Made by a program: the position numbers and the translations under genes | Source of the DNA: a virus | Strand: one strand, 5' to 3' | Length of the DNA stretch: 23,378 bases | IMG/VR virus record: IMGVR_UViG_3300012918_000006 | Span: 1-23,378 of that record | Shown here: positions 1 through 16,425 of the stretch, piece after piece | Position numbering within the stretch: the stretch's first letter is position 1 | Layout: each line of letters starts with the position of its first letter | Notes under the pieces: model-generated | What the model saw: only the letters and a program-made list of their open reading frames with translations | What the model was told of the DNA's origin: nothing | The model's database searches: none

Positions 1-365
1 TCTTGACAGTACTCACATACCTCATGCTCTGGTGGAGCCTTGCCGTAGACTTTCGCCATAGGTACGGGATTGTCGAACTTACCACTCATCACCTTCCCGT
101 AGGTCTCGGGTCTTACCAACCACCCGAACTCGGCCTTCCATCCCTTGGTGTGCTTCACCTTTGCGTTGCAGAAATCAGATGCTGCAATCCTCTTTACGAC
201 ACTCACCCAGTAATCGAAATCATTTTTCTCTCGCACGCGATCTTGAGCCGAGAATGCTGCTGCTCCTAAATCTTCGATCTTCTGAAGACTGCCTGAATGC
301 GAGTTCCATACTTGCATCAACTCTCGTGCTGTTATCGGACGGGACTTTGGACTGCTACTGCTCAT
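1..365 (-). CDS. Phage replication-protein-like C-terminal region (partial)
   Basis: This leftward reading frame starts at ATG 363-365 and stays open to the left edge, so only about 121 residues are visible. A GAGGT ribosome binding site lies 8 bases before the start, and the gene overlaps the end of the preceding leftward gene by 11 bases, which implies translational coupling. Visible stretches include WVSVVKRIAASDFC and then GWKAEFGWLVRPETYGKVMSG. This spacing (W...V..RIAASDF, K.....W.A.F.WL..P....K...G..D) is the pattern seen at the C-terminus of many phage and prophage replication initiator or helix-turn-helix replisome-organiser proteins. I infer a DNA-replication role. The start seems close to the conserved domain, so the protein lacks the long N-terminal DNA-binding region of full-length initiators, or that part is encoded elsewhere. 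An alternative is an unrelated early protein carrying the same module. Confidence 0.7.
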   Translation of the reverse strand, partial: MSSSSPKSRPITARELMQVWNSHSGSLQKIEDLGAAAFSAQDRVREKNDFDYWVSVVKRIAASDFCNAKVKHTKGWKAEFGWLVRPETYGKVMSGKFDNPVPMAKVYGKAPPEHEVCEYCQ

Positions 366-603
366 TCTTTTTGACCTCTAACTCATCGAAGAAACATACC
401 CATCCTTGCTTCGATGGTTCGCGCTCCGCCCACATCTCTTTGTGTACCCAGTCGCTATCGATTACCCAGATCCATAGCACAGTAGAGTCGAGGTCTGTCA
501 GTCCTTTCATCAGTTGTTCTCGGGTCTTGAAAGATTTCCAGAACATCGATTCAATGCCGACCTTCGATCCCGGCTTTCCTTTAAACACGACAAACCGTTT
601 CAC
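355..603 (-). CDS. Small early protein of unknown function (82 aa)
   Basis: This 82-residue leftward gene starts with GTG at 601-603, preceded by a perfect AGGAGG ribosome binding site five bases upstream, which is strong support for the start and strand. The product is rich in tryptophan and charged residues, has no membrane segment, and shows no motif I recognise. Its stop (TAG, 355-357) lies inside the start of the next leftward gene, which has a replication-protein-like C-terminus, so it is probably the first gene of an early replication operon. The promoter should lie within about 100 bases to the right; an 11-bp palindrome (GTAAT-G-ATTAC, 621-631) just upstream of the ribosome binding site could be an operator. 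The opposite-strand open frame across the same bases has no ribosome binding site and an implausible composition. Confidence 0.75.
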   Translation of the reverse strand: MKRFVVFKGKPGSKVGIESMFWKSFKTREQLMKGLTDLDSTVLWIWVIDSDWVHKEMWAEREPSKQGWVCFFDELEVKKNEQ

Positions 604-681
604 TACTACCTCCTAAACAAGTAATGATTACAAGCAATCCTTTGTCATAGAGTTCCGAGCAAAGTCCCCCCCTACCCCCAA

Positions 682-711
682 TTGAATTGATTCAACTAGC
701 AGTCGTAAAGA
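682..711 (+). promoter_or_regulatory. Candidate promoter overlapping a palindrome
   Basis: TTGAAT at 682-687 could be a -35 box, followed by an 18-base spacer and TAAAGA at 706-711 as a -10 box. Transcription would begin near 718, a few bases before the first strong stem of the hairpin array. The -35 overlaps the 14-bp palindrome TTGAAT-TG-ATTCAA (682-695), which could be a repressor site, as expected between divergent phage operons. The match to sigma-70 consensus is only moderate, so this is a hypothesis. Confidence 0.25.
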
Positions 712-717
712 CTAAAG

Positions 718-1176
718 CCCTACCGGTCCTGGCTGACCTTATGAGAAATAAGGATCAGCAGCAGCAGTGACCGGACACCGACAATCCCCCGTCACCAGGA
801 TTACGCCTCCTGGTAAGCCGTTGCCGTCGACAGAACAATGGTTCCTCTTTGGGAGCGAAGATGATGATGATTCTCTTGATGTGTGTGTCCGTCGGACTAG
901 CCGCGGGTTCTCTTTTAAATTCATCAAAAACTCTTCCACTTTATTGTGCTCCCCTGGTGGGCCTAGCAGTTCTGCTTGCACGTCAGTTATCAGGCCGGGA
1001 ACCCATCCCGGCGCTCCTTTAGTGAGCGATATCCCCACCCAAGGTGACGTCCCCCTATCTAGCCACAGCTCTGCAAGATCCTATCTTGCATGCGGTCTCC
1101 CAGCTTGCGCCTGGACACTTCATTCGCTCTCAACGTGAGCAAATGGAAATGATAGGTTTTTGGCGACCAGTTTTTT
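718..1176 (+). ncRNA. Candidate large structured RNA (strand uncertain)
   Basis: A run of strong hairpins occupies this protein-free stretch. The first is nested: CCGGTC (723-728) pairs with GACCGG (769-774) around an 11-bp stem, GCTGACCTTAT (732-742) with ATAAGG-a-TCAGC (748-759), one bulged A and loop GAGAA. Then follow ACCAGGA/TCCTGGT (794-800/808-814), AGCAG/CTGCT (965-969/972-976), GCCGGGA/TCCCGGC (994-1000/1006-1012), CGCTC/GAGCG (1012-1016/1024-1028), CACC/GGTG (1036-1039/1043-1046), TGCAAGAT/ATCTTGCA (1072-1079/1083-1090) and CATTcGCTC/GAGCaAATG (1121-1129/1137-1145). A TTTTTT run at 1171-1176 could mark the 3' end. The size resembles the large ornate RNAs known from phages (GOLLD, ROOL), but I cannot recognise any of those families by eye. 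A chance cluster, or operators acting as DNA, remain alternatives. Confidence 0.35.
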
Positions 1177-1300
1177 AATCGTTCGATCTTTGGTATTGAA
1201 TTTTGAAGATAGTTTGATATTTACTGTGACCAAGCGGTCATATCTTTAGATCTTCAAATCAAACCGTGATGATCAGGTCCTCGTAAGACCGAACGATCAA
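1175..1300 (+). ncRNA. Candidate structured element upstream of the methyltransferase gene
   Basis: Bases 1175-1188 and 1287-1300 form a 12-of-14 inverted repeat (core ATCGTTCG/CGAACGAT) that would close a domain of about 126 nt. Inside lies a long hairpin at 1202-1258: TTTGAAGAT pairs perfectly with ATCTTCAAA (9 bp), then a symmetric 5x5 internal loop, GATA/TATC, a 7-base bulge, and TGACC/GGTCA capped by AAGC. A further GGTC/GACC stem (1276-1279/1287-1290) competes partly with the closing helix, and GTTTGAT/ATCAAAC (1212-1218/1258-1264) offers an alternative fold. It ends about 100 bases before the next gene, so it could be a leader, a small RNA or a protein-binding site. It may be part of the same transcript as the preceding hairpin array. 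Confidence 0.35.
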
Positions 1301-1361
1301 ATTGTCCCAGGGAGAACATCCCTCCCCTAGACTCTTCGGACCATAGCTAAAGTCTCGTCAG

Positions 1362-1392
1362 TTGTTAACGATAAATTTGTTCTTGCTAAAAT
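1362..1392 (+). promoter_or_regulatory. Candidate promoter for the methyltransferase operon
   Basis: TAAAAT at 1387-1392 matches five of six bases of a -10 box. A -35 could be TTGTTA (1362-1367, 19-base spacer) or TTAACG (1365-1370, 16-base spacer); neither is ideal. Transcription would start near 1399, right at the GTG start at 1401, giving a leaderless or nearly leaderless message. This fits the absence of a ribosome binding site there. Confidence 0.35.
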
Positions 1393-1400
1393 AACTCTAC

Positions 1401-2639
1401 GTGGCAAGAATGCGGGCCATGGAAATCAAGGCCAAAGACATCAAGATTGTTCCCGTTGCGGAGCTGCGCGTAAACAAAGCAAACAGAAATAAACATCCTC
1501 CAGAACAAATCGATCGCCTTGCCAAGATCATCGAATACCAAGGCTTCAGAAGCCCCGTCATCGTGAGCAATCTCTCAGGCCTAGTAGTGGCAGGCCATGG
1601 CCGATTGCTCGCCGCCAAGAAGCTAGGGATCGCACAGGTGCCGGTGATCTACCAGGACTTCGAAAATTCTGATCAAGAATATGCAGCATCAATTGCGGAT
1701 AACTCCGTTGCATCTTGGAGTGAGCTTGATCTATCAGGAATCAATCTCGATCTCGGTGATCTAGGACCTGATTTTGATATCGATCTTCTCGGCATCAAGG
1801 GATTCACGATCGACGTAGCCGACAAAACTCCAGGCTGTGACGAAGACGATGTTCCAGCGCCGCCGGTTGATCCGATTGCGAAGCGCGGGGATATTTGGCA
1901 GCTCGGTCGGCATCGGTTGATGTGTGGCGACTCGACCATGATCGACGACGTCGAAAAACTGATGGATGGTGACAATGCAGATGGTTGTTTTACAAGCCCG
2001 CCATACAATTGCGTCATTAAATACAATCAATACGACGATAAGAAAGAGAAGGAAGATTATCTTGAATTTGTGACTATCATAATTTCAAACCTATTCGCGG
2101 TTATGAAAAAAGGACGGATCATTTTTTGGAATTGCGGAAGTTCTCCCAAATCCCATGCCCATGCCCATGCCTTAGAAAGTTGTGGATTTACATTACGTCG
2201 TCAAATCATTTGGAAAAAAACTGGTTGTCAAATTCCGCTTTGGCAGAATACTAAGAAAAACCCAGTCGCCAGGTATTATCTACCGAATTACACTCACGAA
2301 AATATATTCATGGCGTCCACTGGTGAAATAGAAAATGGCGAGCCGACCACATTTGACGAAAAGTTGGCGAATGATGTTTGGGAAATATCTCAGTTTTCCG
2401 CTGGCGGTAAAGGACATCCTGCTGCGTTTCCAGTTGAACTGGTTGAACTCCCATTGGTCGCGACCACTAACGAAAACGAATTAATATTCGAGCCATTCGG
2501 AGGCAGCGGGACTACGCTAATTGCATGCGAGAAAACCAATCGCAAATGTTTCATGATGGAAATCGATCCACACTACGTCGACGTCATAGTAAAACGTTTC
2601 GAAAAATATTCAGGCCAAACAGCGGTGTTGATCACATGA
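1401..2639 (+). CDS. ParB-like domain fused to DNA methyltransferase
   Basis: This is a fusion of an N-terminal ParB/sulfiredoxin-like domain (about residues 9-115, with GHGRLLAAKKLG from residue 65) and a C-terminal SAM-dependent DNA methyltransferase. The catalytic motif TSPPYN is at 198-203 and the SAM-binding motif FGGSGT at 366-371, giving the beta-class order (catalytic motif first). The SPPY form is more typical of N4-cytosine enzymes than the DPPY of N6-adenine enzymes, but specificity cannot be fixed from sequence. Such fusions are common in phages and are thought to modify phage DNA against restriction. No cognate restriction enzyme is adjacent. GTG 1401 gives the longest frame; ATG 1410 and ATG 1419 are equally credible, and none has a good ribosome binding site. 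Base composition drops sharply near position 1995, inside the catalytic motif region, suggesting a mosaic gene. Confidence 0.9.
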   Translation: MARMRAMEIKAKDIKIVPVAELRVNKANRNKHPPEQIDRLAKIIEYQGFRSPVIVSNLSGLVVAGHGRLLAAKKLGIAQVPVIYQDFENSDQEYAASIADNSVASWSELDLSGINLDLGDLGPDFDIDLLGIKGFTIDVADKTPGCDEDDVPAPPVDPIAKRGDIWQLGRHRLMCGDSTMIDDVEKLMDGDNADGCFTSPPYNCVIKYNQYDDKKEKEDYLEFVTIIISNLFAVMKKGRIIFWNCGSSPKSHAHAHALESCGFTLRRQIIWKKTGCQIPLWQNTKKNPVARYYLPNYTHENIFMASTGEIENGEPTTFDEKLANDVWEISQFSAGGKGHPAAFPVELVELPLVATTNENELIFEPFGGSGTTLIACEKTNRKCFMMEIDPHYVDVIVKRFEKYSGQTAVLIT

Positions 2640-3328: not shown

Positions 3329-3640
3329 ATGAGCAAATCCACTCCCGGCCCTTGGTCAGTAAGTGGGCCATATGCCGATCAAACGCTATCGATCCTGGCC
3401 CCGCAAAAGGAATCTGGCTGGTCACCAATCATCGCAAATATCCGCAAGAAAAGTGATCAGAGCTATTTCGAGGCCATGGCAAATGCCAGACTGATAGCAG
3501 CAGCACCAGAGCTATTAGAATTCGCTGAGGCCGTACTGCGCGAACTCCTCGCCTCTAAACCCACACTCGATGAGGACGCCATGAATCGGCTCTGGGAGCA
3601 TGGTCAGTCCGTCGTCAAGAAAACGATGGTGAAGCCATGA
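3329..3640 (+). CDS. Conserved phage protein of the TPGPW / ANARLIAAAPELL type
   Basis: This is a 103-residue protein. The start at ATG 3329 is preferred over an upstream in-frame ATG because it begins the typical sequence MSKSTPGPWSV and has GGGGAG ten bases upstream, inside the end of the HNH gene. The C-terminal half contains the block ANARLIAAAPELLEFAEAVL, seen together with an N-terminal TPGPW in many small phage and prophage proteins. Its function is not known; it is generally found among accessory or early genes. It overlaps the next gene by four bases (ATGA), so the two are translationally coupled. No membrane segment or metal site is visible. Confidence 0.8.
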   Translation: MSKSTPGPWSVSGPYADQTLSILAPQKESGWSPIIANIRKKSDQSYFEAMANARLIAAAPELLEFAEAVLRELLASKPTLDEDAMNRLWEHGQSVVKKTMVKP

Positions 3641-3933
3641 CAAAAGATGAACTCGATCGACTGCGCGCTCTGAACCGTAAATTGGATGCAGCCTACAAAA
3701 GGGCGATTGTAGAATGCCGCCGACAATACCTTCATGCCGATAAGAACGGAGCAGGTGCCGAAAGATGGATGGAAGTTCATCGTCTCGGCGGTGAGGCCGA
3801 TGGACTGATGCATGCCTATGGCCTGATATCAGACCTCATCTATGAATTCACCAAAGAGGACGAAGCACTGAAACAATTTAATGAAGATCTATTGCTCGGC
3901 CATGGTGACGGTTCAAAGAAAGGAAAATCATGA
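3637..3933 (+). CDS. Hypothetical phage protein, helical (98 aa)
   Basis: This is a 98-residue, highly charged protein, predicted from composition to be mostly alpha-helical (start MTKDELDRLRALNRKLDAAY). I do not recognise a family. It begins at an ATGA overlap with the upstream TPGPW-type gene and ends at an ATGA overlap with the following zinc-ribbon gene, so it belongs to a small coupled operon of accessory genes. The C-terminus is lysine- and glycine-rich. No signal peptide, membrane helix or cysteine pair is seen. Confidence 0.65.
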   Translation: MTKDELDRLRALNRKLDAAYKRAIVECRRQYLHADKNGAGAERWMEVHRLGGEADGLMHAYGLISDLIYEFTKEDEALKQFNEDLLLGHGDGSKKGKS

Positions 3934-4127
3934 AGAAAAAAGCAGCAGCAAACCCAACCTTCCGTTGCATGATCTGCAATCGCTTATTTCGGCGCGGTGC
4001 CATGATCGAAGTCCGTAAGGGCCCATCCAAAGGCGTCGTGGGGAGAATTTCTGAATATTCTAACACGCCGCCTCGTACCATAACTCCTTCACCAACTATC
4101 CGGAATATCCAGATAGTTGACACCTAA
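3930..4127 (+). CDS. Truncated zinc-ribbon protein, probably degenerate
   Basis: This is a 65-residue frame coupled by ATGA to the gene before it. Residues 8-35 (NPTFRCMIC ... RRGAMIEVRKGPSKG) closely match residues 117-144 of the HNH protein. In this copy the second cysteine pair is missing: about 44 bases present in the HNH gene after the SKG codons are absent. The sequence then rejoins at a shared TGGGGAGAA and TCTGA, but out of frame, so the ancestral stop is bypassed and translation runs on through a low-complexity tail (NTPPRTITPSPT) to TAA 4125-4127. I infer that a zinc-ribbon gene was damaged by a deletion. It could still make a stable small peptide, but zinc binding through four cysteines is lost. 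Confidence 0.55.
   Translation: MKKKAAANPTFRCMICNRLFRRGAMIEVRKGPSKGVVGRISEYSNTPPRTITPSPTIRNIQIVDT
3951..4034 (+). repeat. Zinc-ribbon coding repeat, copy B
   Basis: This is the partner of 3180-3263: 84 bases with no gaps, encoding the first CxxC and the RRG..I.VR.G.SKG segment. Immediately after it the copies diverge by a deletion of about 44 bases and rejoin at TGGGGAGAA (4039-4047 here, 3312-3320 in copy A). Confidence 0.7.
4093..4119 (+). other. Strong hairpin at the 3' end of the degenerate zinc-ribbon gene
   Basis: CAACTATC (4093-4100) pairs with GATAGTTG (4112-4119). After a C-A mismatch, GGA pairs with TCC, leaving a 3-base loop. There is no T-run, so it is not a standard intrinsic terminator; it may be a 3'-end stabiliser or an operator. 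It lies within the run-on tail of the upstream frame and would have been intergenic before the presumed frameshift. Confidence 0.5.
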
Positions 4128-4140
4128 CTAAAAGCCACGA

Positions 4141-4169
4141 TTGTCATTTCCCGCCAAAAGCTCAACACT
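4141..4169 (+). promoter_or_regulatory. Weak candidate promoter before the 4181 gene
   Basis: TTGTCA (4141-4146), a 17-base spacer and AACACT (4164-4169) give a good -35 and a poor -10. The start codon at 4181 follows only 11 bases after the -10, with no ribosome binding site in between. This is the same arrangement as the gene at 9620. Support is weak on its own. Confidence 0.2.
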
Positions 4170-4180
4170 GACCGAACATC

Positions 4181-4681
4181 ATGGCTGACGGCTTTAGATC
4201 GATACTCCTCATGGATTCAGATGCCCAATACTTGGGCAATAGTCCTGGCGCTGACCTGAGAGGCCGCCTACACGTTCTCGTCGCTAACACCACTCTAGAA
4301 CCCGTCCCCGTCGCAATCGTCGACTCCTCAATGCTGCCCCTATCCTCAGTGAACGTGTTCGCCACAGCCTCAGCAGTACCATCCGGGTCAGAAGTCCTGA
4401 TCGCAACCTATACCGTGCCGCCGGCCAAGACCTTCCATCTCGTGCGCGTGGATATATCGGGCGACAACGTTGCCAAGTACAATCTCTACGTAAACGCTTT
4501 AGTCATCGCCAAGCGCCGGACCTGGTTCGGTGGAAATATCTCAGAGACAATTGAATTCTTAGACGGGCACAAAGTAGGATTAAAGCTAATAGCCGGTGAC
4601 GTAATCGAAATCAAAGTCTTCAACTATCGTCCTGATCCAGCCGACTTCGATGGACGAATCCAAGGTGTCTTGGAAGGGTAA
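4181..4681 (+). CDS. Beta-rich putative virion protein (166 aa)
   Basis: This is a 166-residue protein with alternating hydrophobic residues and few charges, typical of a beta-sandwich virion protein (for example VATYT-like strands around VLIATYTVPPAKTFHLVRVDI, then WFGGNIS and GDVIEIKVFNY). I do not recognise a specific family. It heads a set of seven co-directional genes that resemble decoration or receptor-binding accessories, so a surface structural role is inferred. No ribosome binding site precedes ATG 4181; the alternative ATG 4211 has none either. The downstream coiled-coil gene starts after a 6-base gap, using a GGAAGGG site within this gene's 3' end. Confidence 0.65.
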   Translation: MADGFRSILLMDSDAQYLGNSPGADLRGRLHVLVANTTLEPVPVAIVDSSMLPLSSVNVFATASAVPSGSEVLIATYTVPPAKTFHLVRVDISGDNVAKYNLYVNALVIAKRRTWFGGNISETIEFLDGHKVGLKLIAGDVIEIKVFNYRPDPADFDGRIQGVLEG

Positions 4682-7691: not shown

Positions 7692-8129
7692 ATGGCCGCC
7701 GCCAAAGAACCAAAGCCCAAGAAAAAGATGGGGCGTCCTCAGATGGAGATCAACTGGGAAGACTTTGATAAGCTCTGCGCCATTCAATGTTCAGAGCAAG
7801 AAATAGCGGCCTGGTATAAATGCCACATAGATACCATCTACATTCACGTCAAACGTAAGCATGGTATGACTTTCCCCGAGTACTTCGCTCAAAAGAGAGT
7901 GGGCGGCAAGGTATCTCTTCGGCGTAAGATGTGGCAACAAGCCCTGGCCGGAGATCGTGTTCTTTTACTCTTCCTCGCTAAGAATCATCTCAACATGTCT
8001 GACAACGGGCCCACCGATGGGAAACCTCTTGTCATGGTGCAGACAGGAAACGATACCATAGTCTATGAAACGAACTGGGGCTCAGCCAATGAGTCAAGCG
8101 CCATCGCGGACGATAAGAAGGATTCTTAA
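7692..8129 (+). CDS. terS: Terminase small subunit-like DNA-binding protein
   Basis: This is a 145-residue protein. A lysine-rich N-terminus with GRPQMEINWEDFDKLCAIQC leads into a helix-turn-helix segment (SEQEIAAWYKCHIDTIYIHVKRKHG), then FPEYFAQKRVGGKVSLRRKMWQ and LLLFLAKNHLNMSD. This order (GRP, HTH with C.IDTI, KR..GK.SLR, FL.KN.L..SD) is characteristic of a widespread phage protein family regarded as the DNA-recognition or small terminase subunit. It would select packaging sites and load the large subunit. AAGGA lies seven bases upstream of ATG 7692. It overlaps the large-subunit gene, the usual arrangement. Confidence 0.8.
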   Translation: MAAAKEPKPKKKMGRPQMEINWEDFDKLCAIQCSEQEIAAWYKCHIDTIYIHVKRKHGMTFPEYFAQKRVGGKVSLRRKMWQQALAGDRVLLLFLAKNHLNMSDNGPTDGKPLVMVQTGNDTIVYETNWGSANESSAIADDKKDS

Positions 8130-9441
8130 ACTCTATCATCCCCACGATAAACAGCTCGAGCTTCACAATCTAACTAAGCGCTACATCGTAGCCTCTTGGG
8201 GGCGCCAATCAGGTAAGTCCACCTGGGGCATCAACGAGATCCTACGTTCCATGTGGAACAAACCATCGACCAACTACTGGTTCATTTCACCAACTTATCA
8301 GCAGGCGCTTAGCCTCTATCGTCGCATGGTCGGCATGCTCTGGGCATCGCCTGGACTCTTGCTAAAGAAGAATCAAACCGAGCTCAGAATCAAACTCAAC
8401 AACATGTCCCAGTGTCGATTCATCTCGGGCGAGATCCTCCATAACCTCCGCGGTGAAACTCTCAATGGCGTTATCATCGACGAAGTCCGAGCACAGCACA
8501 AAGACCTATGGCCCATGATCATTCGCCCGATGTTGTCGACCACTAAGGGTTGGGCCCGTTTCATCTCAACGCCCAACGGCTTTGACCACTTCTATGATCT
8601 CTCGCAGAACCACAGTCTCGATCCTCACAACTGGGCTTTCTTCCAAACCCCATCGACGGCGAATCCGCTCTTCTCATCTGAAGAATTTGAAGCAGCAAAA
8701 GCAGACATGTCAGAACCTCAGTTCGCACAAGAGATCCTGGCTCTCTTCAGAGATCTGACTTCCGGTAAGACCTATCTCAACTTCTCAGATAAGAACCTCT
8801 CTCAATACTGCCCATGGCATCAGGACCATCCGTGGTCCCCGTATCTACCAGTCGTCCTTGGCTGTGACTTCAACATTACACCCATGTCGTGGACGCTAGG
8901 GCAAACCAGAGCTGAGGAGTGGTGGTGGTTTGATGAAATCGTCTTAAAGAACTCTCACACTCCGGAAGCAGCCAAAGAGCTGGTACACCGAATTCACGCC
9001 ATGCAGGCCTCTGGCCATCGAGCGGATCCGGCCCTGGTCATTTGTGGGGATGCTACTTCAAAAGCTCGCCAAAGGGCCGCTGGTGGCGAATCCGACTACA
9101 CGATCTTGAAAGGTATATTGCGAGACGCGAAGATCACATTTACCGACAAGACCCCGGATTCAAACCCCGCGGTGAAAGACCGAGTCAATAATGTCAACGC
9201 AAAGCTCCAAGATGCGGCAGGATCCCAACACCTTTGGCTACAACCCGCCAAAGTCCCTCATCTCAAGAAAGACTTAGAGCGAGTCGTTTGGAAGCCAGGG
9301 GCTGAGGCAACACTCGATCAAACGACCGATAAGGACCGGACACATTCGTCTGACTCGATCGGCTATCCGATCCATGAATTGACACCGATCAAACAGATTC
9401 GGAACATTGGATCATCTCGGATTCTCCACCGAGTTTTCTAG
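8065..9441 (+). CDS. terL: Terminase large subunit (ATPase-nuclease)
   Basis: This is the DNA-packaging motor, using ATP hydrolysis to translocate DNA into the prohead and a nuclease domain to cut concatemers. The ATPase shows Walker A GRQSGKST (46-53), Walker B VIIDE (136-140) and coupling motif ISTPNG (167-172). The RNase H-like nuclease shows the expected acidic residues D268 (GCDFN), D329 (CGDAT) and D430 (SSDSIGY). At 458 residues it is of usual length for compact terminases. ATG 8065 overlaps the small-subunit gene by 65 bases; ATG 8089, with GGGG eight bases upstream, is an equally good start and begins closer to the conserved region. The gene is followed by an intrinsic terminator. 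Confidence 0.95.
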   Translation: MKRTGAQPMSQAPSRTIRRILKLYHPHDKQLELHNLTKRYIVASWGRQSGKSTWGINEILRSMWNKPSTNYWFISPTYQQALSLYRRMVGMLWASPGLLLKKNQTELRIKLNNMSQCRFISGEILHNLRGETLNGVIIDEVRAQHKDLWPMIIRPMLSTTKGWARFISTPNGFDHFYDLSQNHSLDPHNWAFFQTPSTANPLFSSEEFEAAKADMSEPQFAQEILALFRDLTSGKTYLNFSDKNLSQYCPWHQDHPWSPYLPVVLGCDFNITPMSWTLGQTRAEEWWWFDEIVLKNSHTPEAAKELVHRIHAMQASGHRADPALVICGDATSKARQRAAGGESDYTILKGILRDAKITFTDKTPDSNPAVKDRVNNVNAKLQDAAGSQHLWLQPAKVPHLKKDLERVVWKPGAEATLDQTTDKDRTHSSDSIGYPIHELTPIKQIRNIGSSRILHRVF

Positions 9442-9619: not shown

Positions 9620-10744
9620 ATGTACACTTTGAATCAATCACCGGCCTATCGACGATTCGTTCGCGACCGCGACAAAGCGCTCGAGGTTCTCCACATCAGA
9701 GCTCAGCGAAAGATCTCTGATACTTTGCGCGGATCCTTTGCTCATGCTTTAAGCATCACCAAATCCTACTATCATCGCCTCATCGATAACCCGTCCACCG
9801 AGAACGCTGAGGCCCTCAGTCGTGAGATCGCTTTTCTCTTTTCCTACACCAAATTGGAAGTGGTCTATGACATCAAACGATTACGGCGTAACGCGTTCAC
9901 CCTCTCTAAGTCATCCGAGTCAGAAGTACTGGCCCAGTTATTTTCGAGACCTATCCACGCCAAAGTCTCAAGAGATCAAACCCAAGCAGCAGCAGACAAG
10001 AATGTCACAGAAGGTGGAAGTCTCGATCATCGTGTCGGTCTGTATCTTGATCGCGTCCGTCGCGATCTAGTCCACAACGCCCAACAGGCAGCGATGATCA
10101 CCTATGGCGATAAAGACGGGAAGATCGTTCATCTCGACGAGCATGGCTATCTACTGCGCGCCTACATGGCTTTTCCCAAGGCCCGCAAAGTGGTCAGACC
10201 CAAGTGCGAGCTCAAACCACCACTGATGAAAGAGGCAATCAAGTTCAAGAAATCAGATGATGAGTATGCCATGACCAAGGACTCGGCCATCGACATGATC
10301 GACGAAGATCAGTGGGCACAGATGCTCGAAGACTATACGTCAGACTATGTTCCGAAATGGCGAGGACCGAAGGACATCATCGAAATCCCTGGCAACACAG
10401 GCGACGAACTCTATGCATGGGAGCTCGAGCGATCGATTACCCAGGACTTCGTCCAGCAGGTTCGTGACGGACAGATTGATGCAGCGAAAGAGAACGGCAT
10501 CAATGACTTCGTTTGGATTGCAATTATTGACGCAGTGACTGATGATTGTTGCACATGGCGCGATGGACTATTGACATCTGAGATTGAACAACGACTTCGC
10601 ACGGACAAACAAAACGACGAGTGTCAGGCAACAGTGCCTGCAGCTCACTTCAACTGTAGGTGCACACTAGCGCCTGCCTCAGACGATATACCCAAAGCCC
10701 CAAACGACCTGTCTAAGGAGTTTGAGGATTGGCTAAACACATAG
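9620..10744 (+). CDS. MuF-like phage head morphogenesis protein
   Basis: This 374-residue protein has a helical N-terminal half and a C-terminal MuF/SPP1 gp7-like domain (about residues 290-350): TDDCCTWRDGL, then a glutamate-rich helix, then VPAAHFNCRCTLAP. The paired cysteines and the HFNCRC motif are characteristic of this family, whose members are minor head proteins bound to the portal and present in a few copies per virion. It lies just before the portal gene, overlapping it by 16 bases; in many phages the order is portal then MuF. No ribosome binding site is visible before ATG 9620, and the start sits about ten bases after a promoter-like element, so the message may be nearly leaderless. 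Confidence 0.85.
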   Translation: MYTLNQSPAYRRFVRDRDKALEVLHIRAQRKISDTLRGSFAHALSITKSYYHRLIDNPSTENAEALSREIAFLFSYTKLEVVYDIKRLRRNAFTLSKSSESEVLAQLFSRPIHAKVSRDQTQAAADKNVTEGGSLDHRVGLYLDRVRRDLVHNAQQAAMITYGDKDGKIVHLDEHGYLLRAYMAFPKARKVVRPKCELKPPLMKEAIKFKKSDDEYAMTKDSAIDMIDEDQWAQMLEDYTSDYVPKWRGPKDIIEIPGNTGDELYAWELERSITQDFVQQVRDGQIDAAKENGINDFVWIAIIDAVTDDCCTWRDGLLTSEIEQRLRTDKQNDECQATVPAAHFNCRCTLAPASDDIPKAPNDLSKEFEDWLNT

Positions 10745-12465
10745 CATTTACAGATGGATCAGATGAGCCAACCAGGAAGAAGATCGCGAGAGCAGAGAGA
10801 CTCGCGCAGGGTCTTATATTTGACGAGAAGAAGTATGAATACTCAGATGCATTCGTTCCTGGTGATCCTGACGATCCTATGTCTGTTCATACTGTTAGCG
10901 AAATGCTCGAGTGCCTTAAACGAAACCCACAAGTTGACATCGAGGCACGAGTACTCGGTACCAGTCGAAACGGTCGTCATCTCGTTAGGCTTAACAAAGA
11001 GCAGATTCTAGAATCATCCAAGCGTCGGGATTCAAAGAAGTTTCGAGAGAGCATCGACACGTTTCTGTTTGATGATCACCCGGTTACCACAAATCGGGTA
11101 GGCGATGATTTCATCCCTCTCACCGGTGGCCCATTTTTTAAACAGCTCTATTACCGCGACTATCTCCGCATGCATGGCGCGAGCTTCCAGGCCTATCATC
11201 AGGATTGCTTTGCTAGGGCTGTAGTCGAGATCACGTCTAACTTCACCCTTGGCCGTGGTTATGATCTCATCTCCGAGAATCCGAAGGCGATGGCCCTATG
11301 GCAGGCGTTCGAGAAGGTCAATAACCTTGAAGAGCAGATGGAGCTTCTCTCGACCGAAGTATGCATCTATGGCGAGGTGATGATCTGGAAACTCCCAAAT
11401 CTCAACACCAAGATCGTCTATCGCCCGCGGCCTGATGAGAAGATCCCAGTCGGCATGATCCCACGAGTCCGGCTCATTGATCCATCGGCGATCGTCGAAA
11501 TCGTGACTCACCCAGAGGACATTTCTCGCGTACTTTTTTATCAGTGGCTCGCGCCAACACAGTATCAGATCTACACCGATGGGAAACAGCCATCGACGAA
11601 GTTCATCTTCCAACAGATACCAGCTGATCAAGTGGACCATTACCGTGTGAACCGAGTCTCAAACGAGAAGCGTGGCCGATCTGATTTCTTCCCGGCCCTT
11701 GGCTACATGAAACGCCTGAGGGATTCAGTGAACTACTCAGTCGTTGCCCTGCAGAAGGCAGCAGCATGGTGCATTGACACCACCATTGCCGGCGACGACC
11801 AGGACATAACGGATTACATCAATGGCCAACGGGCACTAGGCACCTTCGCGCCCGCCGGATCTGAGTTTGTCCACACCGAGTCAGTTAAACGTGAGTACCT
11901 ATCAAACGGCGCTACTGGCAAAGGTGGAGACCCACACGTGTTCCTATGGTGCCTCTCTGAGATCTCGGCGGGCACTGGCATTCCCATTACGTATTTCGGA
12001 TCTCACCTATCTGGAGGTCAGAACAGAGCCTCAGCACTCACCGCCACAGAACCCGTTGTGAAGAAATTCGAGCGCCGCCAGGGTCTCTATGCCCGCGTGG
12101 TTAAGGGTCTCTTCTATTGGCTGATGGAGCAGTATGGAATCGATGCCCAGTGCGACATCATCTTTCCTGAGCTCACCACACAAGACCGCTCGGCGAAACT
12201 TAAAGATCTGCAACTTGCCGAGATGGCCAAATGGTTCTCTCACAAGCGCGCAATGGGACTCGCGGCCCAAGAGCTTGATCAAGACGACTTCAATCCCGAT
12301 ACCGAAATGGCTGACATTGAAGCAGAAGCAGCCAAGGGCGAGGGTCCAGTCGGTTTCCCGTCAACAGGTCCTCTCTCGACACCGGGTCAGCTTCCACCGA
12401 AGTCAGACCTTGGCATGACATCAGACGAGAAGACCAACACCAAGGCGAACATCAACAATGGATAA
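10729..12465 (+). CDS. Portal protein
   Basis: This 578-residue protein is the dodecameric ring at the DNA-entry vertex that docks the terminase and the connectors. The start is TTG 10729, with AAGGAG eight bases upstream inside the MuF-like gene. Diagnostic stretches are RVRLIDPSAIVEIVTHPEDI, then VDHYRVNRVSNEKRGRSDFFPALGYMKRL and SVVALQKAAAWC, the usual portal clip/stem order. After these comes GTGIPITYFGSHLSGGQNRA, matching the C-terminal portal region. The position after terL and the MuF-like gene and before the protease-scaffold is the canonical one. The C-terminus is a disordered Gly/Ser/Lys tail. Family subtype (lambda-like or SPP1-like) is not resolved. Confidence 0.9.
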   Translation: MAKHIAFTDGSDEPTRKKIARAERLAQGLIFDEKKYEYSDAFVPGDPDDPMSVHTVSEMLECLKRNPQVDIEARVLGTSRNGRHLVRLNKEQILESSKRRDSKKFRESIDTFLFDDHPVTTNRVGDDFIPLTGGPFFKQLYYRDYLRMHGASFQAYHQDCFARAVVEITSNFTLGRGYDLISENPKAMALWQAFEKVNNLEEQMELLSTEVCIYGEVMIWKLPNLNTKIVYRPRPDEKIPVGMIPRVRLIDPSAIVEIVTHPEDISRVLFYQWLAPTQYQIYTDGKQPSTKFIFQQIPADQVDHYRVNRVSNEKRGRSDFFPALGYMKRLRDSVNYSVVALQKAAAWCIDTTIAGDDQDITDYINGQRALGTFAPAGSEFVHTESVKREYLSNGATGKGGDPHVFLWCLSEISAGTGIPITYFGSHLSGGQNRASALTATEPVVKKFERRQGLYARVVKGLFYWLMEQYGIDAQCDIIFPELTTQDRSAKLKDLQLAEMAKWFSHKRAMGLAAQELDQDDFNPDTEMADIEAEAAKGEGPVGFPSTGPLSTPGQLPPKSDLGMTSDEKTNTKANINNG

Positions 12466-12853: not shown

Positions 12854-14663
12854 GCGCGTCGGTGCTTATAACGACAAGAGTAATGGCATCAGGACCAGCC
12901 ATTGGTTTTGGGGTGCTGCTGATACGTTCAAACCAAAGCCAACGGGTGACTCTGACCAAACGTCCGGATCTTCGGCCGATGAGGATGTGAGAAAGCTCTT
13001 GGTCGAAAACCCTCAGGCCAATGCTGCTACCCTTTACAACATGATCAAAGCCAAAGGCTTGAAGATTGTAAAGGCAACCGAGCATGCAGCTCTGGGCGTG
13101 GATAAGAAGAAATTCGACGATTGCGTAAACAAGGTGTCGGCCAAAGGCAACACCAGTAACGCCTATGCCGTTTGCAACGCGAGCCTTCAACAGGGGGGCA
13201 GCACAGGTGCAAAGAAGAAGAAGAGAACCGAAGCCGACTCAGCCTCAGCAAATACGCAAATGCTTCCGGCAGGTGCTAAGGGTGTTCCAAAGAAGAAACC
13301 AAAGACAGAGTCATCTCAGGGCAACATTTCTTGGACAGCAAAGTTTAAGGAATCGTCTGCGGTCGACGACGGGATAGGACACACGAAGTTTGAAGTGGCC
13401 CTCATCACTGAAGGACTGGGGAATTTCAAGGATGCATTTTATTACGACCGCGAAGCCCTGGAATCTGCAATCCCGATATTCGAGGGAGCAAAGATCTATG
13501 CCGATCACCCATCTCTTAGCGAAGAAGAAGACAGGCCAGAGAGATCAGTGCGCGACATCCTCGGCCATTACCAGGACCTTCGCATCCAAGAAAAAGACGA
13601 TGGTTGCGGCGAGCTCTTAGCTGATCTCGTCACTCTTCCAGATAAATCAAACGAATGGGCCCGCACTCGCATCAAGCACGCGGCCGAGTACGCCAAGAAG
13701 TTCCCAGATAAGGATTTTGTCGGTCTATCCATCAATGCCTCAGGTGATGCGATGGAAAAGAAGATCGACGACGTAATTGCCTCGGCACCCGAGGGCGCAA
13801 AGATCAAACTCCAAGAAGCTAAAGATTCAGGAATTGAAACCATCAGAGTCGTATCAGAGATCAAGGATGCCGTATCCTGTGATCTAGTCACTGAGGCCGG
13901 AGCTGGTGGCAGAATAATCAATCTCATCGAAGGGGAAAACATGGCCACCAAAAAAGGCAAAGTTAAAAACAGAGAAGCAGCAGCAGACGGCGAACACGAC
14001 GATGCGGCTCAAGATATGGAACTCATCAAAAAGATGCTCGACGAATACGTGGGAAAAGCCGATGGCGATGACGGGCACTCCAACGAGACCATGAAGATGG
14101 CTTACGAGGCCTATGAGGCCTACAAGGAAATGGGCCACAAAGAAGAAGAGGCCATGAAGATGGCAGGCTCTGCGATGAAGCTTGCTAAGCACATGGCGGG
14201 CAAGAAGGAAGCAGCAGAAACGGATGAGGCCGATGAGGCTGAAGAATCCGATGAGGCAGATGCCGATGGAAAAAAGAAGCCTGATGAAAATCAGGAATGT
14301 GGCGACGAAAAGGATGGAAAAATGAAAAAGATGGAATCCGAGATGCTCCGTCTCAAGGGCCGACTTGCTCTCGTTGAAGCCGACAAGAAAAAGTCAGAGG
14401 CCTATCTCTATATGGAAGATAAACTTGCCAAGAGCAAACAACCTAACTCGATTACTAAAGCCTTCCGTGAAGCGGCAAAGGGCAAGATCAAATCGAAAGA
14501 GGATGTAGATTCGCAATGGCAATCATTTGCCAATGGTGTTGAAGCACAAAAACAGGGTGAAGCCGTTGATAATGTGTTCTTCACTGAAAAAGGAATCACA
14601 GCAAGTGATGAAACTGAAAATGGCGGCATCCTCGATTTCAGCACCTGTGCTGATAATTATTAA
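12774..14663 (+). CDS. Prohead protease fused to scaffold
   Basis: The 629-residue product has three parts. Residues 50-190 are a lysine-rich region with a helical module (FDDCVNKVSAKGNTSNAYAVCNASL). Residues 200-385 are a prohead protease-like domain: KIYADHPS (candidate catalytic His245), RPERSVRDILGHY, then DFVGLSINASG (candidate Ser319). From residue 390 comes a long, charged, helical scaffold (EAYEAYKEMGHKEEEAMKMAG and a Glu/Asp/Lys-rich segment). Such proteins guide capsid assembly and are then cleaved. GTG 12774 is preferred because GGAGG lies eight bases upstream; GTG 12825 is the alternative. Start at either site overlaps the gene before. The scaffold also has its own internal start. 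Confidence 0.8.
   Translation: MRSWSDSFQKLLERKSKVKFKEDKTHKRVGAYNDKSNGIRTSHWFWGAADTFKPKPTGDSDQTSGSSADEDVRKLLVENPQANAATLYNMIKAKGLKIVKATEHAALGVDKKKFDDCVNKVSAKGNTSNAYAVCNASLQQGGSTGAKKKKRTEADSASANTQMLPAGAKGVPKKKPKTESSQGNISWTAKFKESSAVDDGIGHTKFEVALITEGLGNFKDAFYYDREALESAIPIFEGAKIYADHPSLSEEEDRPERSVRDILGHYQDLRIQEKDDGCGELLADLVTLPDKSNEWARTRIKHAAEYAKKFPDKDFVGLSINASGDAMEKKIDDVIASAPEGAKIKLQEAKDSGIETIRVVSEIKDAVSCDLVTEAGAGGRIINLIEGENMATKKGKVKNREAAADGEHDDAAQDMELIKKMLDEYVGKADGDDGHSNETMKMAYEAYEAYKEMGHKEEEAMKMAGSAMKLAKHMAGKKEAAETDEADEAEESDEADADGKKKPDENQECGDEKDGKMKKMESEMLRLKGRLALVEADKKKSEAYLYMEDKLAKSKQPNSITKAFREAAKGKIKSKEDVDSQWQSFANGVEAQKQGEAVDNVFFTEKGITASDETENGGILDFSTCADNY
13941..14663 (+). CDS. Nested scaffold protein from an internal start
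   Basis: ATG 13941, in frame within the protease-scaffold gene, follows AAGGGG at a 5-base spacing, a good ribosome binding site exactly at the domain junction (the sequence changes from protease to MATKKGKVKNREAAADG). Initiation there would give a 240-residue scaffold alone, acidic and helical, with repeated EAYEAYKEMGHKEEEAM-type segments and a possible coiled coil near MKKMESEMLRLKGRLALVEA. This parallels lambda C/Nu3, where a protease and a scaffold share a C-terminus. The start is inferred from the ribosome binding site and domain boundary. Confidence 0.6.
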   Translation: MATKKGKVKNREAAADGEHDDAAQDMELIKKMLDEYVGKADGDDGHSNETMKMAYEAYEAYKEMGHKEEEAMKMAGSAMKLAKHMAGKKEAAETDEADEAEESDEADADGKKKPDENQECGDEKDGKMKKMESEMLRLKGRLALVEADKKKSEAYLYMEDKLAKSKQPNSITKAFREAAKGKIKSKEDVDSQWQSFANGVEAQKQGEAVDNVFFTEKGITASDETENGGILDFSTCADNY

Positions 14664-14675
14664 GGAGTAAAACCA

Positions 14676-15161
14676 ATGACAAAAAATACCAAAGTCAGAG
14701 AGATCTCCGATAAGTCGATCTTTCCTGACGCAACCACGGTGATCACATCGACTACCACGTTCGCCTCTGGCGATTTGTTGGTGTTTGATGACACCCTCAA
14801 CAAGATCGTAGTCCCGACACTCGAAGCCGATGGTGCGACATTCTTGGGCGTTGCCGTTGTGAGCGTCACAAATGGCCATGCTAAGGACGTCTACACCACC
14901 GACGTAGATGCATCGGTTGCGATCACGTCCATTCCAGGGCCGGTCTATGGGAGCGTATTTAAGAGCTTCCTGAAAGTCGGCGATGTTCTAAATCCTGGTG
15001 ACTCCGTTTTCCTCTATCCCACTGGCGGCACGAACTTCGTGCAAGCTGCAGGGACAAAGGCCATCGGTATCTACCAAGGTAAGACAGTCACGGCAGTCAC
15101 CGGGACTGAGGTCGAAATCCTTTACGGTGCTCGCCATCCCGGCGACACGTTGCGATTCTAA
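14676..15161 (+). CDS. Head decoration or stabilisation protein
   Basis: This 161-residue beta-rich protein lies directly before the major capsid gene, the usual place for lambda gpD- or DUF2190-like decoration proteins. Glycine-turn strands recur (SGDLLVFDDTLNKIVVPTL, GDVLNPGDSVFLYPTGG, AIGIYQGKTVTA), as in the small capsid-stabilising family that trims 'early' capsid lattices. AAGGAG precedes ATG 14676 by nine bases. Function is inferred from position and fold-like composition rather than a diagnostic motif. Confidence 0.75.
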   Translation: MTKNTKVREISDKSIFPDATTVITSTTTFASGDLLVFDDTLNKIVVPTLEADGATFLGVAVVSVTNGHAKDVYTTDVDASVAITSIPGPVYGSVFKSFLKVGDVLNPGDSVFLYPTGGTNFVQAAGTKAIGIYQGKTVTAVTGTEVEILYGARHPGDTLRF

Positions 15162-15174
15162 GGAAGGATGACAA

Positions 15175-16425
15175 ATGAACCCAACATTTAAAACAGTCGA
15201 AGAGGCAAATACCTGGCTCACCAACTTCATGGCGACCAGATCACAATCAAACCCGATCCGCGAGCGCAACCGCAGAGTGCAAAAGCGCCTGATGACAGAG
15301 TGCGAAGACGTGAAAGAATTCCGTGAAGGGATGAAGCGCCGGTATGGCTTTGATCCCATCACTGATTCGAAGCGTTTCCCGGTGCTCATGGAATCGTTCT
15401 CGTGGAAGAAGTTCCGTCAAGAGCTGGGATCGAAACTCCGTGAGGCAGATAGCTCTTCTGCTTTCACTCAGTTCCTGCGCGCCGGCATTCAGAACATCAC
15501 AGCGAACATGTATGAGATCACTCAGGGTTCGCACGATGATTGGGTCACAACCGTTGGATCCACTCGGGCTGAGGAGCCCTACGCTCCGATGCATGGTGTG
15601 GCGTTCCCTCGCCAAGTTGGTCCGCAAGTTCCCTATCCAGAGGTCGGAGCTGCGGCGCTTGACTTGAAGTTGAAAAACTACAAGTACGGCAGCATCTACG
15701 GCGTGGAAAAAGAGCTTTTGGAAGATGACCAAACTGGACAGTTCCAGAGGCAGGCAGGAATGCTCGGTGAATACCTGAAGGTGCTCACTGAAGTTCTTGT
15801 CATGGGAAAACTCGCATCCGTCACCGGTGGTTGCACCTATGCCGGCTACACGGTTCCCGTATCTGAGACGAAGCCATCGAACGAGGCAACATATCCTTGG
15901 TCGACGACTCTCTCAGGTGGTGGCAAGAACCGTCCGACAGCATTCGGTGTCATGACTCAGACGAACATCCAAAACGGATTCATCGGCCTCATGGCTCAGA
16001 AGAATCTGCAAGGCTTGTTCATGCAGGTCGCACCCTCTCGCATCCTGATCTCGCCATTCTATGTGTTTGATTTGGCAGTGTTGCTGAACTCAGCTTACTA
16101 CCCATCAGGCGCAGCAGCAGCGGGCTCCACGGGTGGCGCGTTTGCAATCAACCCACTTAAGGGGATCGCTGATTCCACCGTCTCTCGGTACATGTTCGAC
16201 AATGCCGGCGCAATCACTGGTTCGTCGAAGGCATGGTATATGATGGACGATGCGAAGCCGTGGTTCATCCTTCAACAGCGCACACCAGTGGCCGTTGAAC
16301 AAGAGAACCCACAATCGGGCGAGAGCTTCCAGCGCGATATCTATCGCTTCAAAGCCTACAGCCGGCAGAACGCGGACTTCATTGATCCGCGTTTCGCATG
16401 GCAGGGTTCTGACGGTAGCGTTTGA
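15175..16425 (+). CDS. Major capsid protein (HK97-fold, probable)
   Basis: This 416-residue protein has a strong AAGGAAGGA ribosome binding site before ATG 15175, fitting high expression. A charged helical N-terminal region (about residues 1-100) could be the cleaved delta-like segment. It is followed by a stretch resembling the HK97-fold E-loop and P-domain (VTTVGSTRAEEPYAPMHGVAFP, then YGVEKELLEDDQ) and an A-domain containing SRILISPFYVFDLAVLLNS. It follows the protease-scaffold and decoration genes and precedes connectors, the canonical capsid position. Fold assignment rests on context and length; no absolutely diagnostic motif exists. Confidence 0.85.
   Translation: MNPTFKTVEEANTWLTNFMATRSQSNPIRERNRRVQKRLMTECEDVKEFREGMKRRYGFDPITDSKRFPVLMESFSWKKFRQELGSKLREADSSSAFTQFLRAGIQNITANMYEITQGSHDDWVTTVGSTRAEEPYAPMHGVAFPRQVGPQVPYPEVGAAALDLKLKNYKYGSIYGVEKELLEDDQTGQFQRQAGMLGEYLKVLTEVLVMGKLASVTGGCTYAGYTVPVSETKPSNEATYPWSTTLSGGGKNRPTAFGVMTQTNIQNGFIGLMAQKNLQGLFMQVAPSRILISPFYVFDLAVLLNSAYYPSGAAAAGSTGGAFAINPLKGIADSTVSRYMFDNAGAITGSSKAWYMMDDAKPWFILQQRTPVAVEQENPQSGESFQRDIYRFKAYSRQNADFIDPRFAWQGSDGSV

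Follow-up and report, generated by a model that had tools for sequence, protein, structure and literature searches.

Genomic context and coding status

The window analysed here is the whole 23,378-base virus record IMGVR_UViG_3300012918_000006, which derives from an uncultured phage. Near its left end a gap (604-1400) separates leftward genes, lying at the left edge, from a rightward gene block that includes the packaging and head genes (Table 1). The leftward gene truncated by the window edge matches replication initiation proteins and DnaD-like helicase loaders (phrog_5810, E = 2.8e-9; phrog_10469, E = 4.7e-8), and its neighbour, the 82-amino-acid frame next to the gap, was assigned to no family by Pfam and PHROG searches. 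The start of the right-hand neighbour was picked by comparison with the record L002. This gene (1422-2639) fuses a ParB N-terminal domain to an N6/N4 DNA methyltransferase; in L002 and L093 the ParB-like protein stands alone, directly upstream of the terminase genes. ARAGORN found neither tRNA nor tmRNA in the window, which is a fragment.

The gap is noncoding. As the first-pass annotation had held, neither strand carries a convincing protein: the three open reading frames in the gap have codon scores (mean log2, trained on 20 rightward genes) of -0.25, -0.10 and -0.08 and thereby resemble wrong frames. The training genes themselves score between -0.05 and 0.27 (positive in 19 of the 20), and of the two leftward genes one scores 0.10 and the other 0.00. 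The two longest frames have no Pfam or PHROG match. On the plus strand, purines make up a fraction of 0.40 in the leftward genes and 0.53 in the rightward genes; the gap lies between them at 0.46, and the fraction jumps at about 1400, as would be expected if the gap were transcribed leftward.

Transcription signals are scarce. The first-pass annotation had proposed a promoter-like pair just ahead of the first stem and a T6 run as the end of the array; no sigma-70-like site is present at the former, the overall number of such sites equals the shuffle mean, and no terminator-like site occurs on the plus strand in the gap. On the minus strand of the gap, too, the site scan revealed neither a clear promoter nor a clear terminator; there the putative start of the best leftward match (about 1333) falls one base before the hairpin 1332-1304. 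Iterons are absent from the gap, as are DnaA boxes (one mismatch allowed), features that phage origins need not have.

Table 1. Genes, promoter-like sites and elements of the predicted minus-strand fold in the window
Feature	Position	Strand	Basis or remark
Replication initiation/helicase-loader-like protein, truncated by window edge	3..365	-	PHROG matches
82-aa ORF, downstream of candidate RNA	355..603	-	GTG start after AGGAGG site
ParB-N + N6/N4 DNA methyltransferase, right neighbour	1422..2639	+	Domain matches
Terminase	8065-9441	rightward	
Portal	10729-12465	rightward	
Head protein	15175-16425	rightward	
Promoter-like site with TG extension, for methyltransferase	1365..1392	+	Consensus match only
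Best leftward promoter-like match, TTAACA-17-TATGGT, start ~1333	1340..1368	-	At chance level
Candidate large structured RNA, maximal extent	647..1400	-	Fold versus shuffles; start near 1333 possible
Closing helix P1, 5' strand	1393..1400	-	Pairs with 647-654; 8 bp, mean probability 0.96
Closing helix P1, 3' strand	647..654	-	Predicted fold
Purine-rich hairpin, 11 bp, 29 nt	1304..1332	-	Mean probability 0.96
Long imperfect hairpin, 128 nt	1174..1301	-	Predicted fold
Branched domain A	954..1170	-	Predicted fold; covariance model R1
Hairpins inside domain A	1121-1145, 1095-1118 (GCAA loop), 1072-1090, 1016-1044 (loop GATATCG), 992-1015, 965-976	-	Predicted fold
Second domain, GGGAGC/GCTCCC closure	851..953	-	Predicted fold
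Hairpin including the 794-814 stem	779..829	-	Predicted fold
Two-part hairpin	723..774	-	Predicted fold
Final stem-loop element ahead of closing helix	657..720	-	Predicted fold

Hairpin excess and fold strength

The hairpins of 718-1176 are real and exceed chance. The perfect stems described there by the first-pass annotation, at 794-814 (7 bp, loop of 7), 994-1012 (7 bp, loop of 5) and 1072-1090 (8 bp, loop of 3), are present, as is the bulged hairpin at 723-774. If a perfect stem is required to have 7 bp or more and a loop of 3-10 bases, the stretch holds three against a mean of 0.15 in dinucleotide shuffles, and three are reached by one of the 500 shuffles and by none of the 94 other 459-nt windows.

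The fold of the gap is exceptional, and the over-folded stretch is longer than the 718-1176 first proposed, running from about 647 to about 1400. On the minus strand of 647-1400 the minimum free energy is -269.6 kcal/mol, whereas shuffles give -225.6 +/- 7.3 kcal/mol, for a z of -6.0. One state exceeds a probability of 0.9 at 68% of positions (31% in shuffles), and neither this share nor the energy is reached by any of the 80 shuffles. The plus strand, which the first-pass annotation had implied, folds less well over the same interval (z = -3.9, 50% certain positions), and 718-1176 on that strand gives z = -2.2. When 780-nt tiles are laid across the window, the minus strand of the gap is the deepest of the 60 tile/strand pairs. 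By the identical measure, Escherichia coli RNase P RNA (z = -2.65, 53% certain positions) and nucleotides 1-754 of 16S rRNA (z = -3.18, 58%) are both weaker than the minus strand of the gap. The antisense strands of these two controls give z = -0.7, compared with -3.9 for the plus strand of the gap, so that part of the gap signal is strand-neutral, from inverted repeats that could function at the DNA level.

Two observations temper the size of this excess. A 500-nt scan with a cruder, regression-based expectation gives the gap only z = -2.9, many windows in related phages being deeper, and coding tiles over head-protein (capsid) genes reach z of about -5. The interval 14661-16220, which surrounds the major head protein gene, comes close to the gap in over-folding, with z between -4 and -5, although it is coding. 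Two further indicators of strand were rejected: G-U pairs outnumber A-C pairs on the minus strand of the gap by 15:4, a bias likewise shown by a coding control tile (12:3), and A-rich unpaired bases are equally frequent in shuffles.

Predicted structure

The minus-strand model of 647-1400 contains about 16 hairpin loops in a few branched domains, and in most of its helices the pairs have a mean probability of at least about 0.9. The long imperfect hairpin is built on a 17-bp basal helix in which the two imperfect pairs are G-U on the minus strand and A-C on the plus strand. Several loops in the model are palindromic (GATATC, CTAG and ACGT); a 6-nt palindrome turns up in one loop or more in about 18% of random loop sets.

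Homologue searches

The candidate is an orphan and belongs to neither GOLLD nor ROOL. The families suggested by the first-pass annotation (GOLLD, ROOL, HEARO and raiA) gave no match even at E <= 10 when the whole window and 600-1420 were compared by cmscan with all 4227 Rfam families, at gathering and E <= 10 thresholds. The covariance models of OLE, introns, RNase P and tmRNA in Rfam also gave no match, and two eukaryotic snoRNA matches at the permissive threshold lie far below the cut-offs and were dismissed as chance.

Relatives were also sought through genes of the window. Terminase relatives occur in IMG/VR (up to 58% identity), and in these neither blastn nor nhmmer found a homologue of the gap, while the covariance models built for three domains matched only the window itself; as each model came from one sequence, only fairly close relatives would be found, and this negative is weak. 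No terminase relatives were found in bacterial genomes, and a prophage search with terminase and portal gave no nucleotide homologue of the gap; nor did the relatives of the methyltransferase and of the 82-amino-acid gene. Distant blastn searches against phage, plasmid and E. coli records were empty or at noise level, and a scan of IMG/VR with seed words from the RNA returned chance matches only.

Divergent gaps in related phages

Two or three members of the phage group have a structured divergent gap, those of the window and L110 showing no sequence similarity to each other. In L110 the gap (1440-2102) is flanked by a leftward recombination operon with RecT on one side and a rightward gene for RNase H on the other, a setting like that of the window gap, and folds with z = -8.1 on the minus strand and -3.5 on the plus strand. 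It contains a 15-bp terminator-like hairpin with a T run at 1498-1466, facing the leftward RecT operon, and low-complexity repeats of the CGTCGG type. The minus strand of L110 1440-2102 is a second candidate large phage RNA and counts in favour of an RNA in the window gap. In L124 a 780-nt divergent noncoding gap (3575-4354) beside a RecT-like gene is equally over-folded on both strands, and terminator-like hairpins are more numerous in it than in shuffles; L123 carries a stretch 99.8% identical to it. An ordinary control region seems the better reading of this gap. Two supposed parallels were discarded, the gap of L091 holding two small genes and that of L111 small open reading frames, and the remaining divergent gaps of the group are not over-folded. 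Elsewhere in the group, the minus strand of L006 4216-5217 encodes, judged by eye, a DNA adenine methylase-like frame into which a long Q/L/E/R repeat (LQQLQQLERLERLQQL...) is inserted.

Discussion

The first-pass suggestion of a large structured phage RNA proves to be a fair reading, strengthened by the shuffles and the known-RNA controls; its strand, boundaries, promoter and terminator did not survive. On balance we lean towards the gap encoding a large, independently folding minus-strand RNA that runs leftward toward the replication operon, most simply a 5' leader that is kept or processed. We infer its transcription, strand and boundaries. The RNA would be about 690-754 nt long, with its ends closed by the 8-bp helix, and may serve as a long 5' leader of the replication operon that is retained or processed into a free RNA. 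A leader is the simplest reading because no terminator was found between the RNA and the AGGAGG that precedes the next gene. The likeliest mechanism, in our view, is that the folded body, as a stable RNA, would shield the transcript or set the timing of expression of the downstream replication genes, a putative role.

The inverted repeats might instead act as operators or as replication origin or processing sites in a DNA-level control region between divergent early operons, the RNA fold being a by-product. This is possible, though we would not expect it. Such a region would suit a divergent intergenic site next to a replication gene, and it would account for the strand-neutral share of the signal, seen in the plus-strand z and in the Watson-Crick-only energies of -222.5 and -210.0; the gap of L124, over-folded alike on both strands and rich in terminator-like hairpins, offers a parallel. 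The lack of iterons and DnaA boxes speaks against it, as does the minus-strand fold, in which the helices nest within a single closed and sharply defined structure and are not separate palindromes. It is unlikely that the gap is merely an unselected stretch in which hairpins and short leader elements have piled up neutrally, with no large RNA as such. The absence of a homologue in any search made, the folding excess of similar size in head-protein genes and the failure of the cruder scan to single out the gap would all fit this explanation, but shuffles never reached the fold energy and certainty of the minus strand and only once reached the number of perfect stems.

An RNA on the plus strand, extending from about 718 to 1176 as first envisaged, is very improbable. 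That strand is indeed over-folded, over the wider interval and less strongly over 718-1176 itself; however, the minus strand is both deeper and better defined, the base composition fits leftward transcription, and the proposed ends have neither promoter nor terminator. Beyond the minus-strand leader that we favour lies a bolder and rather doubtful proposal, namely that the 690-754-nt RNA represents a new class of large phage RNA, not related to GOLLD or ROOL, that heads an early replication operon and perhaps assembles into an RNA-only complex through its palindromic loops. Given the frequency of such palindromes in random loop sets, the assembly part is only a lead.

Comparison with known systems

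Few large structured phage RNAs are known, and the purpose of the RNA-only nanocages formed by GOLLD and ROOL is unknown. The present candidate is a single sequence for which no homologue was found; if it is real, an unrelated RNA at the head of replication genes would point to repeated invention of such RNAs by phages, and the locus would be one where a role can be tested by deletion. GOLLD is a phage and prophage RNA, often longer than 800 nt, and ROOL is likewise known from phages and prophages, the function of both being unknown (PMC12286853). The candidate resembles GOLLD in size class, in its many hairpins and in being phage-encoded, but it has no Rfam match, and GOLLD often lies near tRNA islands, whereas the window has no tRNA. 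GOLLD forms an RNA-only 14-mer nanocage. With ROOL (RF03087, a 574-position model) it shares size class and branching, yet the ROOL model matched neither the window nor any of 32 related records; in the latter scan the control genomes were not matched either, which makes that negative a weak one.

In phage K, the long noncoding RNAs lnc001 and lnc002 are encoded in intergenic regions and have no known function, lnc001 having its own early promoter (PMC9241854). The candidate is likewise long, noncoding and intergenic in a phage. The phage K RNAs were seen by RNA-seq and adjoin tRNA genes; distant blastn against phage records returned only noise matches of 29-31 bases. The put antitermination RNAs of phage HK022 are structured RNAs in early phage leaders. 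The candidate resembles such leaders as a structured RNA directly upstream of an early operon, but is about ten times larger.
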